DNA from: Lineolata rhizophorae
Lineage: Eukaryota; Ascomycota; Dothideomycetes; Lineolatales; Lineolataceae
Length of the DNA stretch: 64,000 nucleotides
Reading direction: 5' to 3'
Assembly (NCBI GenBank): GCA_010093515.1
Contig: MU001675.1
Location: forward strand, 250,275 to 314,274
Under the pieces are notes generated by a model, which saw only the letters and a program-made list of their open reading frames with translations, was not told the DNA's origin and searched no databases. Each line of letters starts with the position of its first letter. The first letter of the stretch is position 1. The position numbers and the translations under genes are program-made. This document shows, piece after piece, positions 27,840-63,058 of the stretch.

Positions 27840-27974
27840 TCATCCCACCGATCGAGTTGCTAAGGAGACTGTTAGCGGCCGCCGACAGCGGTTGCACTTG
27901 CCGTGCAGGCAGTTGATGCAACGAAAGAGCCAGGCCGAATTTAGAAACCGGCACTTGCAACAATTCCAGGCCAT
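27840..27974 (-). CDS. RanBP2-type zinc-finger micro-ORF, copy 1 (44 aa)
   Basis: A tiny frame whose first residues are already the finger. From the Trp at residue 3: W-N-C-C-K-C, then x3-N-x6 to C-I-N-C, then L-H-G-K-C-N-R-C. This fits the RanBP2 finger consensus W-x-C-x2-C-x3-N-x6-C-x2-C exactly and adds a second metal site, H-x2-C-x2-C. About 14 residues follow to the stop. Known RanBP2 fingers bind RNA, ubiquitin or Ran, but usually sit inside larger proteins. Here the Met lies two residues before the Trp, as in copies 5 and 6. Whether it is translated alone or is an exon of a larger gene cannot be told. Confidence 0.55.
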   Translation of the reverse strand: MAWNCCKCRFLNSAWLFRCINCLHGKCNRCRRPLTVSLATRSVG

Positions 27975-28160
27975 TGTTGTACCGTCTGGAGCAGGTATAA
28001 CTAGCAGCGCAAAGGCCCCCTTAGTAACACGTTTTAGAATAGCAGGTAACAACACCAAAACTGGACAGCCGCCTCTTTCGGTCGCGTTCAGGCATGCAAT
28101 GTTGAGGAAACCTGCCGCGTACCTTACTAATGCAAAGAAGATCAGTGATTGCTTCGACGG

Positions 28161-28262
28161 CTACGCCTTGCAGTTGCTGCACCTGCGGTGCGAGCACTTC
28201 GAGTTGAGGTAGACGTAGCACGAGTCGGCGTTCTTGACCTTGAATTTGCAACAAACCCACAT
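28161..28262 (-). CDS. RanBP2-type zinc-finger micro-ORF, copy 2, diverged (33 aa)
   Basis: Begins M-W-V-C-C-K-F and ends S-H-R-R-C-S-N-C-K-A. The Trp, first Cys, the Asn of the consensus and the distal H-x2-C-x2-C are kept, but the second Cys of the first pair is Phe and the middle pair is shifted, so a canonical RanBP2 site is unlikely. A pyrimidine-rich acceptor-like CTTTCAG at about 28287-28293 and a GTACGT donor-like site at about 28322-28327 precede it, so a 41-bp leader intron is possible. Same strand and order as the other copies. Confidence 0.4.
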   Translation of the reverse strand: MWVCCKFKVKNADSCYVYLNSKCSHRRCSNCKA

Positions 28263-28529
28263 GATGTTGGATTGGAGGATGCTTTGCTGAAAGAAAAGGA
28301 GTAAAAGAGAACTAGACCACCACGTACAGCACTTGTTAGTCGTTTGTTTTGTTTGGAAAGCTCTCTAGCGCAACACCGGTAATAACAGTACTAGAGAATG
28401 CAGTAAAATGAGATTTGATAGCAACGTTCTCAGTCTCCTGCAGTTCGTCTGTACGATTGCACGAGCGTCGAGGTGGTGCCTTACAGTCGTTAAATGAAAT
28501 GTGACTTCTAGGCTCCAAATTAGCTACAG

Positions 28530-28691
28530 CTACTTGGTAGTCTCGGCTTTTTTCGAATAAACTTTGCAATTTTTGCAACAATGATGGCCGCACTCCCAAT
28601 TGAAGCATTTGGATTCCTTGGGTACATTTACGCCAAGGCATTGACAGCAATGCCAGGCGGTTTTGACCGCGAACCAAGACCAAAAAGGCAT
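28530..28691 (-). CDS. RanBP2-type zinc-finger micro-ORF, copy 3 (53 aa)
   Basis: Differs from its neighbours in having a short leader (MPFWSWFAVKTA) before the finger W-H-C-C-Q-C, x3-N-x6, C-F-N-W-E-C-G-H-H-C-C-K-N-C. The middle pair is C-x3-C instead of C-x2-C; all other ligands are present. A basic tail (VYSKKAETTK) follows. A donor-like GTAAGC lies 13 nt upstream of the ATG (28705-28710), as in other copies. Confidence 0.5.
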   Translation of the reverse strand: MPFWSWFAVKTAWHCCQCLGVNVPKESKCFNWECGHHCCKNCKVYSKKAETTK

Positions 28692-28935
28692 ATTCGTTGT
28701 CTACGCTTACCTGCCAAGAAGTTTCCGTAACAAGTCAGTGGTTGTTAGGGATGGAAGACATAATATTTGAAATTTGAGAAACTTTAAAGCAAAAGTGAGG
28801 TTGGTTATCTTTTTGGCAGGATGTACCAGAATGTTAGCAATCTACAGACTCTGAGATAGCACTCAATCTGCAGCAGCAAAATAAGCATGCCACTGCCCAT
28901 CGCAAGTCTGCGCTTGCCTTGATTGCAGCGAGTTT

Positions 28936-28980
28936 ACTTGCATGCGAGAAATCTCCAGTACCCGCAGACATAGCAATAAC
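28936..28980 (-). pseudogene. Possible decayed zinc-finger copy
   Basis: On the minus strand a short stretch reads Y-C-Y-V-C-G-Y-W-R-F-L-A-C-K before a stop. This resembles the first half of the neighbouring fingers with the Trp changed to Tyr and several residues missing. The GTAAGT donor-like hexamer found before other copies is present upstream at 29041-29046. The match is weak. Confidence 0.3.
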
Positions 28981-29192
28981 TCGCGTGTAGAAGAACAGAA
29001 CGGCAAAAGGGGCAATAGCAGGTGATTTTGCAGCACTCACACTTACTGGGTTGGCGTGATATAGCCTTTGGCCCTCTATCGGAAGTCTGTCGTCAGTGGA
29101 AGACCTTCCCCGTGGTCTCGATCGCTAAGAATTTCAAAAAAGCGCAACCACTTTTGTTTCCTATGACCACCGGAAACGAAGTAATTAAAGCG

Positions 29193-29273
29193 CTATTTCG
29201 GGATCCAGCCACAGCCGGTGCATGCGAAGGCTTCGTCCCAGTTCCAACTTCGGCAATAGGGACAGTACCACAT
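29193..29273 (-). CDS. RanBP2-type zinc-finger micro-ORF, copy 4 (26 aa)
   Basis: The shortest copy: M-W-Y-C-P-Y-C-R-S-W-N, then x6-C-T-G-C-G-W-I-P-K and stop. It is a perfect match to the RanBP2 consensus (W-x-C-x2-C-x3-N-x6-C-x2-C) but lacks the distal H-x2-C-x2-C. It may be truncated or may be read further by splicing. A GTAAGT hexamer lies 11 nt upstream of the ATG (29285-29290). Confidence 0.45.
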   Translation of the reverse strand: MWYCPYCRSWNWDEAFACTGCGWIPK

Positions 29274-29377
29274 CCCTGCGGAGGACTTACGTCTTGAGTC
29301 AAGATCAGAATCTGCGCGCAGAGCAATAGTCAGTGTCTAGATCTAGAATTGTGTTTATAAACGACGGAGTGCTAACT

Positions 29378-29479
29378 TTATAAAGCTATGCACTTGCTAC
29401 ACTTTTTGTGACTGCAGCTGTTGCAGCGCTTTTTATCCGCCGCATTCCAAGAATCGCACCGGCAACACTTCCAAGCCAT
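29378..29479 (-). CDS. RanBP2-type zinc-finger micro-ORF, copy 5 (33 aa)
   Basis: Reads M-A-W-K-C-C-R-C, x3-N-x6, C-N-S-C-S-H-K-K-C-S-K-C, then three residues and a stop. All ligands of both the RanBP2 site and the distal H-x2-C-x2-C are present. The frame is also open upstream of the ATG for about 55 codons, overlapping copy 6 in another register. GTAAGT occurs 6 nt before the ATG (29486-29491). Only 74 nt separate it from the stop of copy 6. Confidence 0.55.
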   Translation of the reverse strand: MAWKCCRCDSWNAADKKRCNSCSHKKCSKCIAL

Positions 29480-29553
29480 TGTTTTACTTACGCTTCCTGA
29501 TGTTCGACGTGCTTTTAGCTCAAACGCTGCTGTCCTACGGAGTTTGCGCGCAA

Positions 29554-29655
29554 TTAGGAACCGTTGCATTTGGTGCACTTCAAATGCCCGCAGTTCATGC
29601 AGAGTCTCCGGAGCCGTCTGTTGTTCGCCTGGCACTTGCAACACTTCCAGCCCAT
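29554..29655 (-). CDS. RanBP2-type zinc-finger micro-ORF, copy 6 (33 aa)
   Basis: Reads M-G-W-K-C-C-K-C, x3-N-x6, C-M-N-C-G-H-L-K-C-T-K-C, then N-G-S and stop. Perfect fit to the array consensus and the same length as copy 5, with which it forms the closest pair. GTAAGT lies 8 nt upstream of the ATG (29664-29669). The spacers and third-position changes differ between copies 5 and 6, so this is not a recent duplication. Confidence 0.55.
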   Translation of the reverse strand: MGWKCCKCQANNRRLRRLCMNCGHLKCTKCNGS

Positions 29656-29854
29656 TATGTACTACTTACGTTTAATGGGGTTTGAGGCACTCGATCTCTA
29701 AATTCAGCCACCGAGGAGAAAAGGTCAGCAATTATGGGTCCATATTATATTTACGATGGGACTGCAATAAGCCAAGAAATAAAGTAAGGAAAGCCGGTGG
29801 TAAGAAGGCTGACAGCATCGAGAAATCGAAGCTTGAACAGCATGTTATGCCTTT

Positions 29855-29989
29855 CTGTTTAGGCATGCTTGGTGGATCGCACAACACAACGGCCACAAAA
29901 TTGAGGCCTGCAGCCACTGCAAGACAGATCGGTTTTCCTGTAGTTGCACCAGTTGCACCGGCAGCACATCCAGTTCCACGTAGGAGGCA
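29855..29989 (+). other. Cys-rich stretch on the plus strand inside the zinc-finger array
   Basis: One plus-strand frame contains N-x6-C-S-H-C-K-T-D-R-F-S-C-S-C-T-S-C before a stop. The N-x6-C-x2-C spacing matches the second half of the RanBP2 finger, but no W-x-C-x2-C precedes it (W-W-I-A-Q-H occupies that place). An acceptor-like TTTCTGTTTAG lies just before it at about 29853-29863. It could be an inverted, diverged copy. A different, longer frame covers the same DNA, so coding is unproven. Confidence 0.25.
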
Positions 29990-30254
29990 TTTAAGAACAA
30001 AAGGTCGTGGACAACCTACCAAGTCTAGAATGTTCAAACTTGAGAAGGTTGTTGTTCAGGAAGCTGTTAGTTGGGTCAGTCTAAACAGTCTAAGTAAGTG
30101 GCAGGGCTTAAGCCAATAACATAGTAGAATCAAGGACTCACGTCGGAGGTCTCTGGTACCCTCTATCGGATGACGTACGGAGTTTTTCAAATTCCGGTTG
30201 ATGTTGACTGTCGATACCGACCTAGAAAAGTCATGGTTCAGTCAGGTTAGTTTT

Positions 30255-30315
30255 TCAGTACTGATGGGAGCACTGCTTGCAGGGGGAATCTACAGGACGG
30301 CATGCAGCACTTCCA
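30255..30315 (-). pseudogene. Decayed zinc-finger copy at the upstream end of the array
   Basis: Minus-strand sequence reads W-K-C-C-M-P-S-C in one frame and, a few codons on in another frame, C-K-Q-C-S-H-Q-Y then stop. These are the two halves of the array finger with the middle lost and the frame shifted. The initiating ATG is replaced (ATT before the Trp). GTAAGT is found upstream at 30361-30366. This shows that the array extends to about 30.4 kb and has lost members. Confidence 0.5.
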
Positions 30316-30366
30316 AATGCGTGAATTTGCGGGATACTGCTTCATGTGGCAAGATCTGGGACTTAC

Positions 30367-31606
30367 TTTGGCGTGAGAGGTGTCAAAGGCGTGAGTGCTT
30401 TGATGGTAAAGAAGGGTTTGGAGAATGGTTGCGAAGGATTGTGGGTTATGAGCAGCGAAGAGGATGGGTATTTATACCCTTAGTAGAAGGGGCCCTGGTA
30501 CTTTGAATCAGTCACTGTGAAAGTCATAACATGATTGAGTTAATATCTTGGTAGCACGATATGCTTAGTTAAGTGTGGTCATACCAGTGAGTGAGTATTA
30601 AAACTGTTTGTTCGCCATTGCCACAGCTTTTGAACATTGCAGCTCCCTGTTGGCATGCATTCACACAGCAATAGTTCGATTGGTCAAAATGAAGTAAGAG
30701 ACTCCGGTACCAGCATAGGCTGCTAACAGTTACATTTACTAAGCTAGCGGCCGAGATTGAGAGTGAAGTTCGTTAGTCCGCGACTATTCGCTATGAGCCC
30801 GGTCAGTATTTGCCAGACTAATAGCATCCTACTGTGTTCTCTCTTAGACGCCTACCTTGAACTTGCGCTGAAAACGCCAAAGCACGCAGAATCCTGGTAG
30901 TTCTCTGCGATATATCACGTGACTAGCTCACTTTTGCTACTCAGCCACCCAACCTCATTCACTTAGCACTTGAAAACCAGGGGTCGCCATTTATCAAGGA
31001 ATGAGCCTCACGCAGCATATCAAACCCCAGGAGTTTGCTCTACTGCCAGCAAGATCCGCACTTCGTGGGCGCAACGTGGTCGCGATCGGGAACTCCGGGC
31101 TAGCCACGGTATGCTTGTCGCAACCGATCTCCCGCCCCATACCACCTCCCAGCCACTGCCAACTTCTCCCTTTGCGCGCAATGACGAATGTTAGTCTGGC
31201 CCGCCCCGCGGCCCTCGGGTCCGCCTAAGCCACAACGCCCTGCCCTGTGAAAGTGGTGTTTTGCACACCACGCTATACCCTACGTCATCACTAGGGTGAC
31301 GCGTAGAGCTCGACAGGGCCTATAGGTAGGTAGGGCACTAAGCTGCATGCAGGTAGTTTTGCTGCCCCGATCTGCGACTGCCACCAGTCGGGGAATTCGG
31401 TATATAGGCGCAACGAGGCCGGTTTCTTACGGATCGCCTCGCTTTTGCGCCCTTACATTTTGTTGGCAGTGTTCAACTTCTTAGTCATATTTACCATTTG
31501 ATTGCTTCCCGTTACTTCCTTTTACTTCCTTCGTGTGCCGTTTTACTTTTGCTTATATTCACTTTCTCTCCCCGATCGGTCCCAATTGCGCCACGAGTCG
31601 TCCACG
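30367..31606. other. Intergenic: array flank and DUF1989 promoter
   Basis: About 1.2 kb with no supported gene. A short GGTAGGTAGGGC repeat lies near 31326. The last part holds the TATA element and leader of the next gene. Confidence 0.55.
31401..31406 (+). promoter_or_regulatory. Probable TATA box of the DUF1989 gene
   Basis: TATATA 201 bp before the start codon at 31607, within an otherwise GC-rich stretch, followed by a T/C-rich leader typical of fungal 5' UTRs. Confidence 0.45.
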
Positions 31607-42916: not shown

Positions 42917-45900
42917 TTACAATCTCCCGTGCCTCGCCTTAAACACCTCCACCTTATCATCGTAGAATAAAATCTCCCTCAGTCTCAGCTTCGGGCCCTG
43001 GCGCCTCCTCCTCCTCACCTCGCCCTGCCAAGCCACCGCCTCGCTATCATCGCTATCCCAATAACTCGCCCCATCATCCTCCTCTCCATCCTCGTCCGCG
43101 CCATCGCCATCACCTCCATATCCATACACATCCTCATCGTCTTCATCCTCCTCCTCCTCGTCCGCCGTGTCGTCCTCGTCCGAAGCGTCGTCTGAAGCGG
43201 TGGCATCGTCTTCATCATCCACGTCCTCCTCGTCGGCTTCCGAATCGTCGAGGTGATTGTGGTGATGATGGTGGTGATGACCTTGTTGAACCACCACTAC
43301 CGCCGGACCAGCACCCGCCACAGCATTGCTCAGGCCAGGTACACCGTCCGCGCCTCCCACGCCATCATCGTCGTCTTCGTCAAAGTCATTTGTCTGGCCG
43401 AGGCCCGCAGGCGGGATAGGCGGCGGTTGCACGGGTGCGTTGCCGCCGAAGAGTTGGAACTGTGTCACGACTGGAGGCGGAGGTGGGGGATTGGCCTGCG
43501 TGTGCGTGTGATGATGGTGATGGCCGTGGCCTTGCCCAAGATGGTGATGATGCCCGCCCCTCGCTGAATCCCAGTCACGCGGCTTGTTCTCCAGCAACTC
43601 AAAACACTTGTTCTGCACGCCCATATAGCACAACTCAATCTCAGGCCGCAGATGGATGATGTCCACAATCTGCAGTGCCAGCTCGCGAGCGTCGATATTG
43701 TTGCCATGCGCGTGATCCGCGATGTGTGGCACGTACAGGCTACGCAGATGCGGCAGGTTGGGGAGGCTTTGGAGGAAGAAGTGCCAGTCGCGATATTCGA
43801 GGCAAGCACCTAGCTCGCGCAGACGGGCCATACGTCCGCTTGTCAGGAACTCGATGTCTGTGCGACGCAGCATCCAGCGGCGCCACCGGGTTGAACCGGT
43901 CGTAAGGCCGCCATCAAGGTCGCGATCTCCTGAGTCGATGAGGAGTTTCGTTAGGGAGCGCGAATGGCGGCGAATGGGTCCGCGGAAAATAGCGTCGGTA
44001 GGAACGGAGGAAGAGTAGAAACGGCCACCTTCTTGCAAGAAGAGCACTTCGAGACTGTTGGGTGCGAGCGTCTCCTTGAGGAAGGAGATCAGCGCGTTCG
44101 AGACGGTGTTGGTATGCACCTTTTTGAGCGCGAGAGGGTATGCCGTCTTCGGGAAGGCATGGCCAGGGCGGGCACCATTTGCGCCACGGAGCTGCGCCCT
44201 GCCAATTGCCTTATCCGCCATACCGAATCCCATTCCTGTTCCCATACCCGCACCCACTCCAACACCACCACCTAACCTCCCGCCCCTCTTCAGGAAGTCA
44301 TCGCTTTCCTTAGGCGTGTAGGTCTTCTTCAGCGCTTTCCAGAGCTGTTCGTGGTTTTGGCAATGAAGAAGCGTCAGGCTCGTCAGCTGCGTCCAGTCGA
44401 TCGCCTTCTGCATCACCGACACAGCCAGCGGGACGCGCTCGAGCTCAAGCGTATGTAGGCGCAGCTTGCCACGCAGCGGAGGTCCAAGCGGCCATGTGTG
44501 TTGGGCGGCGGAAGAACTGCTGCCAGCCGACGCTTCAGGCGAAGAGGACGCATTCGACATGCCAGTGTGTGGCGACATGCTCGTAAACGAATCGGCCAGC
44601 GGCGAGACCGGAGGCGCACCTGAGCCCGCCGAGGCAGTTTTGCTCGTCTCGGAATTCGCCAGTTCTTCACGCGCCAGCCTCGCCTTCTTCGCATCCCATC
44701 GCATATTATACACGCGGCCGACGATAACACCCAAGATACCGCCCAGCCGCTTTTCGCCGGCCCTGCTTCCGACGCCGTAACGCACTCCACCACCAGGCCA
44801 TGCGCCCTTTCCGATCTCCGCCTCATCGGCGCCAGTGAGATCCTCGCCGTAGTCAACCTGAACGGCGTCTCCTTCCCACGGCTGCACCCAGTCTTTGCCC
44901 TGCGTTTGACGTGCGATGCCGATCCGAAGTTCGCGCAGTACGTCCTGGCTGCGGGCCACAAGCACGCTCAGTTCGTCAAGGTTGGGAAGCTCGTCCACGT
45001 CTAATGCTGATATGCTCTCTAGCGCGGGTAACACGCTAAAGTTGGGATGCTCGATACGGTCGAGGGCGGCTTGCGATGCTGCGGTAGCGGCCGCGGTAGC
45101 CTGTGTTGAAGTGACCGCCGCGCCGTTCACATTGGTGGACGAGATGTGAGGCGTGACCGCAGGCGCAGATGTGCCAGGCGGAGGCGGAGGTGGTGGTGGC
45201 ATAGGTGCGAGAGTAGGGATCGGCGGCGGCGGGGAAGGAAGCGAATTCGCGTCGAGGGAAGAATTGTCGTGGAACCGAACCCAGACTTTCTTGAGCTTGC
45301 AGGGCAGAGCGTCGTCGCGGTCGGCGAGGGAACCCAGCGAGAGCCATACGTCGCGAAGGACACCCGTAGGCATGTCCCACACGAAGGATTCCAAATTACG
45401 CATACGGGCAATAGCCAATGCCACGAGCGTGCCCAGCATCTTACCACTCTCCTTACTAATGAGGTATTCCTGAACCCACTCTGTTGGGCCATTGCCCAGG
45501 CTGAACTTCTTTGTATACATTGCGTAGGAATTGCCATAGCGGCGTCGACGTAACGGATAGTAATGTTTGATACCGGCCCTAGAGTATTCGGCAACGCTGC
45601 TTTCAGGCGGAGGTCTCGAGGCTAGAAGCCCAGGGCCTATCGATGTAGTAAGTCCGCTAGATTGCTGGATAGCTCGTTTCTCGGCCGCCCGCCGAGCCGT
45701 CCATTCCCTGGGTATATTCTCACCAAAGAACTCCTCTCCACGCACAAGTGTGGAGAGCCCATACGTCAAAGCATCGACACCAGGGCGTGTATCAGTGTGC
45801 GTACTCTGGTCAGGCCAGACGATGTCGAAGCGAGCGTAGATCGAGGGGACTGTAAGCGAGTGGAGGACGGAATGGCATCGAGCGAGAGATGTAAGATCGT

Positions 45901-59392: not shown

Positions 59393-60918
59393 CTTATGTT
59401 CTGAGCTCTGCTTGTAATCTGTGTTGCCGGAATAGTAGATCGGAGGAGTGGAGTGGAGGATCTAAGAGGAAGCGGCCGCTCTGCAAGAGTGGGCGAGCTT
59501 ATTCACTCAGCGCGAGAAGCATGGCCGCAAAAACTGGCCTCCGGATTCCCGCGCAATTGAGCTGGATTTCGCTTAAGCGGTCAAGAGCACGAGATTGCCG
59601 TGAGCTTGCGTCCTAATCTTGGGATTTATTTGAAGGCTTGAAGGTATAATTTGTTGTCTAGGGCCTTTTGCCTAGTAGACATTACAATTGAAGGTTGTAA
59701 TCTTCAGATTACATAAGCATAGGATCTCAAGGTCGATGTTTGGTGCATACCTCCTAGCATATGCAAGCGCTCATGATGCGTAACATTAAGGGCGGCATAC
59801 CTGTTGATGTTATACTATGAGCCTTTTACTAAGCTTGGTAGCACTTTAGGCTCTCAAGACTATATTCCCATTACGAATACAAATTCAACTTGCAATTCGC
59901 TTATGTTAATAGCATACGAATATGGGCCTAAGATATAATGTTATTTTGAATATATAGTGGTGAATATAGGATAGCTTTTGTTAGAACTAGCATGCCCCAG
60001 CCTGCAACTAGCCAACTTGGCCAAAAGAGTGGCACAGTATCGCACTTCAGTACGTTACTGCTAGCTAGGAACTACATACATGCTACCAGTTTTATGCGGT
60101 TAGGTCCCTATCCTAAATGTATATACGCCACAGGTTATTATTAACAGAAATAAACAATCGGGCAAGTATATTATCATCAGATACGAAGCTACACGTATGC
60201 CGCTATATGTATAAAAGGGTATCTTCTATTAGTTAAAGTACAGTGTATAGCTTACCACTCGATACTAACTTCAATTAACTCCAGAGAATATAAGACACTT
60301 CTAGCAAGTTAGGCATCTATCTCAGACGTGTATGTGCTACAAAAGTGTCTTGATCACAATATAACACTAATATACGTATATTTTTATCTTAACCTCATCC
60401 GGCGGAACCTACTATACTAATAATATAGCATCTTCTATCAGTTGTAATGCTACTATTTAGTGATAGGCTATCAATAACTATAGAGAGCTTATACTAGAAG
60501 AAGAAGATAGATATAAAATCTTGGTAGTATATTGTATTAGTTAACTATAGATTTGTAACTAAGTGTGTTTACCAATATATAGTGGTAGGTTTCGAACATT
60601 CCTTTCAGTAGTAATGTTATACTACGGATTGTGAGTAATAGTGAAGAAACTTCCGCACAAAAGAGGTGCTATGAATTATCAAGAAAGGCTATGGTAAAGG
60701 TTCTCAATAAACAAAACATTACCCGACAATAAGCACAGTAGAACTACAACAATCCATGCTTTTATCGACCAGTTAGCATAATTACATAGCATGCAAATAG
60801 TAGAGCTTGCTCAATTGTATAGACTAAACAAGGATTCTCAGAGACGTTCCTCTTCTCTCGTCAAAGAGGTTGTAGGATAATAAGACATTGGCGGCAAACT
60901 AACTGATTAGTCCTACAT

Positions 60919-61233
60919 TGTCACGGTCTGGAAGACAAGCAGAAATTCCCGAAGGAAAACCTTGAATTCGAGCTAATTGACAAGAGCTTACACGAAGAAG
61001 AAAAGAAAGGAGAAGAGAAGGAAGAAGAGCAGGCCAGAAGGGGTTTATATACACGAGCCGGGAAAGTTCCCGGTAGCAGTAACACGCATAGATCACGTTC
61101 TAAGAGTAACACGCCAAAGTGAATGCTGCTGATAACACAAATGGTGACGCTAACGCTAGTATTAGTAGCAACGCTGGAGGTAGTAACCGTTAGATCCTGT
61201 GTGAATATAGATTGGTGAGTGGGGCCCGTGACA
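60919..61233. repeat. Solo LTR of an LTR retrotransposon, with target duplication
   Basis: A 315-bp unit that starts TGTCACGG and ends CCGTGACA, so its ends are inverted repeats with the TG..CA termini of LTRs. It is flanked on both sides by TACAT (60914-60918 and 61234-61238), a 5-bp target duplication. Inside are a TATA-like TTTATATA (61044-61051) and a short palindrome CCGGGAAAGTTCCCGG just after it. No internal coding region or second LTR lies nearby, so this is a recombined single LTR. Whether Ty1/copia or Ty3/gypsy cannot be told. The intact duplication suggests moderate age at most. Confidence 0.8.
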
Positions 61234-61262
61234 TACATAGAGAAATGCGTAGCATTTCGTAC

Positions 61263-61667
61263 TTACAAAGCTCCAAGCAATATACAATACAAGAAGCAAA
61301 TAAAAGCACATGCAATATTATTCTTCACTATTATTTTCTCTTCCCACCTTGCAAGCCGATGCTTATAGGGGGCTTCTATCTGGGAAGTATTTACCGGTGA
61401 AACCCTCTGGGGAAGAAAACCTGTCCGAGTTTGTCGGAGGGCCAGGCAGTGCAGCAGTATATGCCAGGGTGTCTGTTTTCCACCTGCGCATTGGCATTGT
61501 CCTGTAGGGTATTGTGGAACCCTCGCTTTTGTGTGGAAGGCGGCGAGCCCTATCCGCCCTGTCCGGGCCTGGATTAAGATTGAGCTTTCCACTTTCCTGA
61601 GCTGCTTATGCCGGTTTAATTGAATACAGTTAAACTTCTTGAGAGTATTACCAAGTAAGGAAACCAT
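61263..61667 (-). mobile_element. Fragment of a Tad-like LINE (3' part of ORF2)
   Basis: The minus-strand frame contains KVESSILIQARTGRIGLAAF, then HTKARVPQYPTGQCQCAGGK and TPWHILLHC. This is the pattern at the very end of fungal Tad-clade non-LTR ORF2 proteins: an ARTGxIGLAAF helix followed by a C-x-C...H-x4-C motif after the RNase H domain. Reverse transcriptase and RNase H parts are not recognisable upstream (61.7-62.5 kb), which is AT-rich and stop-ridden. The element is a dead 5'-truncated or mutated relic. It lies next to, but not inside, the solo LTR. Confidence 0.65.
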
Positions 61668-63058
61668 CTAAGATGCTTCATGAACGCAAGTGATCATGTA
61701 TTTATTATAGGCGCAAAGGCTTGATAAACTAGGAGGCATTAGATGAGCTATTCTGTGGTATTATTGGTTCCTATTTCTTTGAAACTGCGTATCATATAAT
61801 GAGATGTTTTGAGTAGGAAGAAATAAAACACATGCCGAAAACTAGTAGATTTCTATAACGCGAAAGTGTATAAACATGGCGTCTTTGTTGTAAAAAGAAT
61901 ATCAAACCCGTATAACCTTTCCGTAGTACATTATGAAGTTGGAATAGCCTTATAGTAAAAGCCACCGTATCTCTCAAGACTTGTGCCTTTCTAAGTCTTA
62001 CAGTGGGACAGAATGTCATAAGAGTGGGGAGGGCGGACATAAATTATGTGTTCTTATTAAAGTCAGCTTTGGGAAAGGAGTTGATTAGGCAGTGCTGGAA
62101 TTACCCCGACCGGTATACATAGTCATATCCGCAAGCTACACCAAGAAAACTTAGTAAGTACAACAGACCGCGGAGATGTTAAATCACTAAAAAGGTAGCC
62201 GAGAATAACAACTAATATAAATGAATGACTGAGTATTACTATACCTGCCTAATATAGCATGACGAATACAACCATTCAAGTTCTTTCTGGGCCTGCTATC
62301 TTGCTCGAAGAACGATATTCGATACTAGATATATGAAGAGTAGCTAGCAAGGGAAGATATGTCATTATTTGAACTTAATTTCCATCATTGTTTACGTGAA
62401 GGGTATTAGTCAAACACAACTGCCATTAAGGATCTCACAGTAGCGACCAAGCATTATTCCGACCAGTCTCAAGCGAAACATCAAATAGAACCATGCATAA
62501 AGAAAAAAAATTTCCGAGAATTGGAAACCCAAAGATCTCGGAAAGTCAGGCTGGTCGCCGTCCCACTGCTAGCACTGCGGGCGGCTGAAAGAGTCGCGCA
62601 TTAGGTACCGCGAGGTTAATTGCGCGCTGCGAACGCGCTCAAAAGCGCTCAGTTTTTGTCAGAATAAAGGATCCGCAACGGGCGTTCTCCAAGCGCATCT
62701 GGCCAAAATAAAATTTCCTTCTTTTTGTGTCGGTTGACGAAAAAGGGTGCTATTTTTGCCGTCACGGGAGTACCTACCCTAGCTCAGCACGCGCCCGACC
62801 AATCAGCTCGCCAGACGCCCCTTGGCGAACCACCCACCGCGTGTCCAGCCCGCAACGCGTCCCCCAAACACTTCCCTCCTTCGTCGCGCAATCGACCCTC
62901 TTGCTCCCCCCATTTTACGCCCCGTACTCCACCTCCACTCCGATTTATCCTCTCACACCAAACATGCATTACGCGCGCGCATAACAACACCACCTACTTA
63001 TCCCAGCTCCCGACCACGCGACCCAAACAATCTACGCACTTACCTACCTGGCCATACG

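Follow-up and report, generated by a model that had tools for sequence, protein, structure and literature searches.

Does a row of open reading frames (ORFs), each hardly larger than one zinc finger, represent a row of micro-genes, or do such ORFs belong to a single unit? The question is raised by a 64,000-nucleotide (64-kb) stretch of the genome of the fungus Lineolata rhizophorae (the window), in which an array of cysteine-rich fingers runs along the minus strand from 30.4 to 27.8 kb. We find nine finger copies there, comprising seven complete ATG-to-stop ORFs of 26–53 amino acids (aa) and two decayed copies. A 5′ splice-site sequence (GTRNGY) lies at or shortly ahead of eight of the nine, which turns attention away from separate micro-genes and towards finger ORFs within the introns of one possible transcription unit. 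The array is real, constrained and oddly arranged, and the placement of its fingers at 5′ splice sites is what is new. An earlier account made from the letters of the window alone (the sequence-only reading) had overlooked this splice anatomy.

Finger copies and their signature

The copies are numbered in the direction of the minus strand; I1 to I9 denote the modelled introns given further below.

30345–30247, minus strand: F1, decayed finger ORF with a broken frame, inside I1
29990–29859, minus strand: F2, finger ORF of 43 aa, His replaced by Pro, inside I3
29655–29554, minus strand: F3, finger ORF of 33 aa, strict RanBP2 signature plus H-x2-C-x2-C, inside I4
29479–29378, minus strand: F4, finger ORF of 33 aa, strict signature, AlphaFold predicted local distance difference test score (pLDDT) 93.8, inside I5
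29273–29193, minus strand: F5, finger ORF of 26 aa, strict signature, lacks H-x2-C-x2-C, inside I6
29092–28934, minus strand: F6, decayed finger lacking ATG and Trp (stop-to-stop frame), assigned to I7
28691–28530, minus strand: F7, finger ORF of 53 aa, second Cys pair C-x4-C, inside I8
28262–28161, minus strand: F8, finger ORF of 33 aa, two of four core Cys replaced (Phe, Tyr), its ATG split by the donor of I9
27974–27840, minus strand: F9, terminal finger ORF of 44 aa, strict signature

All six minus-strand ORFs of 26–53 aa that had been reported (F9, F8, F7, F5, F4 and F3) are present, but that count was low, with the intact F2 and the decayed F1 and F6 making nine. The idea of a family of stand-alone one-finger ORFs held up. 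All seven intact copies begin with an ATG and end in a stop of their own. The strict pattern W-x-C-x2-C-x3-N-x6-C-x2-C, correctly ascribed to four copies, has exactly four matches on the two strands of the window, all of them in the array (F3, F4, F5 and F9), and none in 200 simulated Markov-1 windows (a looser core pattern has an expectation of 0.055 per window). The remaining copies deviate from it: F2 has N-x7-C, F8 has lost two Cys, F1 and F6 are decayed, and the second Cys pair of F7, previously read as C-x3-C, is C-x4-C. Five copies carry the H-x2-C-x2-C tail and an extra Cys beside the first ligand, and a Met stands one or two residues ahead of the Trp in five (F3, F4, F5, F8 and F9) rather than four. 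At least six Cys are found in six of the seven intact copies, versus 0.4% of 245 ATG ORFs of 26–53 aa outside the array. The copies have 20–45% of residues in common with F4, and 74–104 nucleotides (nt) separate the finger stop from the next finger ATG for F3–F4 and F4–F5. Net charge was considered as a sign of nucleic-acid binding and left unused: it is +5 to +8 in six of the seven intact copies, but at least 6 in 19% of the 245 background ORFs.

The RanBP2 fold family includes RNA, ubiquitin and Ran binders. Membership of the array fingers in it, as the sequence-only reading had proposed, is likely as judged by predicted fold and signature. The four strict copies have the signature of the RanBP2-type (NZF) finger, PF00641, and differ from it in that the finger is almost the entire protein, an extra Cys stands at the first ligand and the H-x2-C-x2-C tail is added in five copies. 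AlphaFold models of the diverged copies F4 and F9 superpose on the Nup153, TRABID and TAB2 fingers at 0.4–0.7 Å over 24–28 residues, with Foldseek E values no better than 0.16. AlphaFold 3 yields confident structures even for random sequences of zinc-finger size, according to the excerpt available of PMC12383448, so the confidence of the present models counts for little. The family assignment did not carry over to Pfam, where F3 (7.9) and the first 35 aa of F9 (7.6) fell short of the PF00641 gathering cut-off of 27 and the other five of the seven submitted copies had no match to PF00641; because of these scores we call the fingers RanBP2-like. Profile matches to YAF2, TAB2, RBM5, TRABID and Nup153 came at E values of about 0.08 and above, and RING fingers equalled or outscored the RanBP2 fingers (TRAF6 0.031, PCGF6 0.018). 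A RING finger was nevertheless rejected, as the copies have at most the first six of the eight ligand positions and lack the last C-x2-C.

Selection on the copies, for which a comparison of nonsynonymous and synonymous rates had been recommended, found partial backing. In all 21 pairs that the seven intact copies form, nonsynonymous differences per site (pN 0.35–0.57) are fewer than synonymous ones (pS 0.49–1.07, near saturation), and the ligand codons vary chiefly by T/C in the third position. Because the copies were chosen by their motif, a choice that itself favours pN < pS, this is suggestive of protein-level constraint and not proof of it. With only 20–45% of residues in common and synonymous sites near saturation, the persistence of the copies is not due to recency.

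Splice-site anatomy of the array

The donor sequence is GTAAGT at F1, F3, F4, F5 and F6, GTAGGT at F2, GTAAGC at F7 and GTGGGT at F8, while F9 has a degenerate GTACAA where other copies have GTAAGT. A GTAAGY at most 35 nt upstream of the ATG is found in five of the eight ATG-bearing copies versus 4 of 375 ORFs of 20–60 aa outside the array (Fisher test, 1e-7), and in four of seven when intact copies alone are counted (3e-6); the looser GTRNGY occurs there in seven of eight versus 60 of 375. The complete order of acceptor, short ATG-free exon, donor and ATG is seen in six of the seven intact copies versus 9 of the 375 outside ORFs, and fails for F9 and F1. A scan by a fixed acceptor-plus-donor rule, applied without guidance from the finger positions, found nine acceptor-donor pairs on the minus strand of the array, or 3.5 per kb over 2.56 kb; the rest of the window has 42, at 0.34 per kb (Poisson 4e-7). 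All nine intervals so defined in the array are free of ATG, versus 64% elsewhere in the window. A CTRAY branch-site sequence lies 16–38 nt ahead of the acceptor in seven of the nine modelled introns, as in three introns of neighbouring genes, which begin GTATGT, GTGAGT and GTAAGT. Since the donors are kept in eight copies, dead ones included, while synonymous sites are near saturation, the donors look selected. A genome-wide search for GTAAGT with the beginning of the finger pattern behind it gave eight matches, equal to the control count, two of them in the array (F4 and F3).

The ORFs, the finger signature, these splice signals and the lack of ATGs between them are all legible in the letters of the window, and they can be assembled into the following model.

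30471–30476, minus strand: TATAAA box, presumed promoter of the whole unit, the only TATAWA ahead of the first copy (2.8 kb scanned)
30367–30450, minus strand: E1, presumed 5′ leader, pyrimidine-rich, no ATG, 5′ end assumed; GTAAGT follows at 30366
30222–30366, minus strand: I1, 145 nt, GTAAGT...CTAAC/CTGAC...TAG, contains decayed F1
30142–30221, minus strand: E2, 80 nt, no ATG; the fixed rule uses an earlier donor (30178)
30064–30141, minus strand: I2, 78 nt, GTGAGT...CTAAC..AG, no finger
30020–30063, minus strand: E3, 44 nt, no ATG
29698–30019, minus strand: I3, 322 nt, GTAGGT...CTGAC...TAG, contains F2
29670–29697, minus strand: E4, 28 nt, no ATG
29535–29669, minus strand: I4, 135 nt, GTAAGT...CTAAT...TAG, contains F3
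29492–29534, minus strand: E5, 43 nt, no ATG
29312–29491, minus strand: I5, 180 nt, GTAAGT...CTGAC...CAG, contains F4
29291–29311, minus strand: E6, 21 nt, no ATG
29076–29290, minus strand: I6, 215 nt, GTAAGT...CTGAC...TAG, contains F5
29047–29075, minus strand: E7, 29 nt, no ATG
28711–29046, minus strand: I7, 336 nt, GTAAGT...CTGAC...CAG, decayed F6 assigned here
28287–28710, minus strand: I8, 424 nt, starts GTAAGC, no CTRAY near the 3′ end, contains F7
28261–28286, minus strand: E8, 26 nt, ends CATCAT before GTGGGT; the fixed rule uses another acceptor (28311–28261)
28001–28260, minus strand: I9, 260 nt, GTGGGT...TAG, no CTRAY near the 3′ end, contains F8 past its split ATG
27975–28000, minus strand: E9, leader part directly ahead of F9, with GTACAA in the donor position

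At 28711/28710 the CAG of I7 abuts the GTAAGC of I8, a zero-length exon that resembles a recursive splice site. The ATG of F7 is the first past this acceptor, 19 nt behind it. Between 30600 and 27800 the minus strand has three TATAWA sites (30476, 29382 and 29359). Scans for bacterial-type promoters and terminators came out level with shuffled sequences, and Rfam returned two matches (E 0.27 and 0.81), both well under the gathering scores.

In the modelled fully spliced RNA a 381-nt leader has no ATG, and the ATG of F9 comes first. Five of the eight modelled retention events put an intact finger first instead (F2, F3, F4, F5 and F8). From this arrangement we infer transcription and splicing of the array, a choice among its fingers, their translation and an RNA- or protein-binding role for the products. 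We tentatively favour a single transcription unit whose translated finger would depend on which intron stays unspliced, and put the probability of this reading somewhat short of even. A single promoter near 30.48 kb would give a pre-mRNA of roughly nine introns separated by short exons, and these exons would form an ATG-free leader. Eight of the nine fingers would each lie where an intron begins, at or directly behind its 5′ splice site. Where a donor is used, the finger would be spliced away and the leader would continue to the next unit; where it is not, that finger's ATG would be met first by the ribosome. Full splicing would leave F9, which has a degenerate donor. The finger would be selected through retention of an intron or, as seems likelier, through cleavage and polyadenylation inside that retained intron (a composite terminal exon). 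The locus would then hold a tandem family of RanBP2-like one-finger microproteins that evolves by birth-and-death.

Weighing the proposed single unit against other readings

Several observations weigh against such a single unit. The small P values treat the copies as independent, and because the copies descend from one another these values overstate the case. The model exons were picked by eye; the fixed rule gives six of the nine identically, departs from them at E2 and E8 and has an extra pair at 28126. For the fixed-rule intervals the P value for freedom from ATG is 0.034, two of the nine being 0 and 4 nt long, and the chance of an ATG-free leader is 0.006, 0.010 or 0.058 under three null models. 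Eight of the nine modelled introns are long (135–424 nt; the ninth has 78) versus 73–102 nt in the neighbouring genes, although an ORF housed in each would be expected to lengthen them, and no CTRAY branch site lies close to the acceptor in I8 and I9. Retaining I1 would expose the decayed F1, and retaining I2 or I7 no finger at all. Among the fingers, the tail ligands are missing from F5 and two core Cys from F8, and F1 and F6 are dead. The TATA-like sites at 29382 and 29359 fall between F4 and F5. The array, finally, was read from the sequence of one genome only.

The main rival, which we consider rather unlikely, is a fossil array shaped by birth-and-death in which a single multi-intron gene makes only the terminal F9, the other copies being intronic remains of tandem duplication that are spliced out every time and whose GTAAGT is kept for their removal. 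It would account for F9 being the first ORF of the fully spliced model, for the decay of F1 and F6 with GTAAGT retained in both, and for the missing ligands of F8 and F5; the copies other than F9 would indeed be translatable only with the donor unspliced. It fits poorly with F2, F3, F4, F5 and F7, which are still open with their own ATG and stop despite near-saturated synonymous sites, and in which the finger ATG is the first past the preceding acceptor; F3, F4 and F7 moreover retain all ligands. Independent micro-genes with small promoters of their own, in which GTAAGT would be an inherited donor of a 5′ untranslated region intron or a regulatory word unconnected with splicing, seem improbable to us. 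The ATG and stop of every intact copy and the two TATA-like sites between F4 and F5 speak for them, whereas only 74–104 nt are available between F3 and F4 and between F4 and F5, most copies have no preceding TATAWA in the stretch scanned, and the acceptor-donor pairs are correct in order and number.

Two readings would make the fingers or the leader part of a longer protein. A gene built of repeated finger exons, raised by the sequence-only reading, was dismissed: a separate stop closes every one of the seven intact copies, and no GTRNGY donor was seen just ahead of any of these stops. We see little prospect for an ordinary spliced gene whose exons encode a longer protein ending in F9 from an overlooked start codon. 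In the modelled spliced RNA the F9 frame is open for 127 codons upstream, bar one stop; such openness arises in shuffled leaders with P 0.11 for the F9 frame and 0.32 for any frame, and a coding leader was not adopted on that ground. The leader has no ATG, and the remaining fingers share no common frame with the exons. Hardly credible, in our view, is a non-functional, untranscribed remnant that retains motif and splice words through recent duplication alone: the two dead copies and the lack of database matches would suit it, and the divergence of the copies from F4 and the near saturation of their synonymous sites argue against it.

Relatives, neighbours and known systems

The sequence-only reading had found nothing familiar in the locus. 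This holds for the arrangement and not for the finger type: contig C26 of this genome has two ordinary ORFs (L004 1345–1821, 158 aa; L036 1423–1752, 109 aa), each encoding a protein with two such fingers. These proteins have the W-x-CC-x-C ... C-x2-C-x-H-x2-C-x2-C finger of the array and differ in being continuous ORFs with paired fingers, whereas the array has single fingers in tandem. The 158-aa ORF additionally bears a proline/lysine/glutamine-rich repeat. Six protein queries against this genome (F3, F4, F7, F9 and both C26 finger pairs; F2, F5 and F8 were not used) found, beyond the array, only the two C26 genes and a place on contig C12 (E 0.31), which contains a TGA and was taken for chance. 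More distant fingers may exist in this genome: the DNA pattern TGG-N3-TGYTGY-N3-TGY has 273 matches versus 114 for the reversed control, and many among the matches listed resemble TGC/TGG repeats. Searched against a public protein set, ten aligned finger stretches yielded a single candidate and nothing matching at E 1, and residues 70–158 of the 158-aa C26 protein yielded no candidate; both searches depend on shared 5-residue words and have little power for short Cys-rich proteins. In addition, phmmer against the PDB with the C26 protein gave a best E of 0.071.

Among the neighbouring genes, SMC6 (1196 aa, three exons in the window) has no mismatch to the Lineolata rhizophorae database protein; the others are a DUF1989 protein and APC2. 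The proteome of the species was in the set searched, as the identical SMC6 shows, and the finger alignment is unmatched there, so gene catalogues can miss such loci. Elsewhere in the window, the second half of a 950-aa ORF (42917–45769, minus strand) contains long His-rich and acidic tracts, and positions 60001–62000 have a G+C content of 0.394 versus about 0.55 in most of the window and may represent repetitive DNA or an extended AT-rich intergenic region.

The array fingers are predicted to have the fold of the ZRANB2 finger (3g9y). That finger binds AGGUAA, a 5′ splice-site-like RNA, as stated in the part of PMC8034646 available, and self-regulation of the array is therefore a reasonable idea to raise. 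In such a scheme, which we regard as doubtful, the array would choose among its microproteins from one promoter by a ladder of donors in an ATG-free leader, every donor standing immediately ahead of a complete one-finger ORF; splicing and intronic polyadenylation would compete at every rung, and the fingers could bind the donors and so regulate their own ladder. If true, this would be a simple system for the competition of splicing with polyadenylation, and would show a domain reduced to a free-standing protein and then multiplied within introns.

In the excerpts that literature searches returned, neither fungal RanBP2 microproteins nor a comparable finger array were found. The plant MIF microproteins are encoded by separate genes. 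Like the array copies these 'mini zinc fingers' are, as the available text of PMC13087070 describes them, very small and hardly more than a zinc-finger domain, and they differ in being of the plant-specific ZF-HD type, whereas the array fingers are RanBP2-like and fungal. In recursive splicing and in fungal stwintrons an acceptor is joined directly or shortly to a donor, as described in the portions available of PMC6224609 and PMC8469720; by sequence the array contains such an AG-GTRAGY junction (CAG|GTAAGC at 28711/28710), and the excerpts of this literature gave no record of an ORF behind each such donor. If true, the ladder would be a compact splicing switch between microproteins in a fungus. 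Fungal splicing is mostly regarded as constitutive. In Drosophila lola and mod(mdg4), common 5′ exons, which encode a BTB domain, are joined to alternative 3′ exons with different zinc fingers. No common coding 5′ exons of this kind are found in the array, the modelled leader having no ATG. The array, as modelled, would be like lola and mod(mdg4) in offering one 5′ part and many alternative finger-bearing ends, and would differ from them in that its leader is free of ATG and each finger follows an unspliced donor instead of having an exon to itself.

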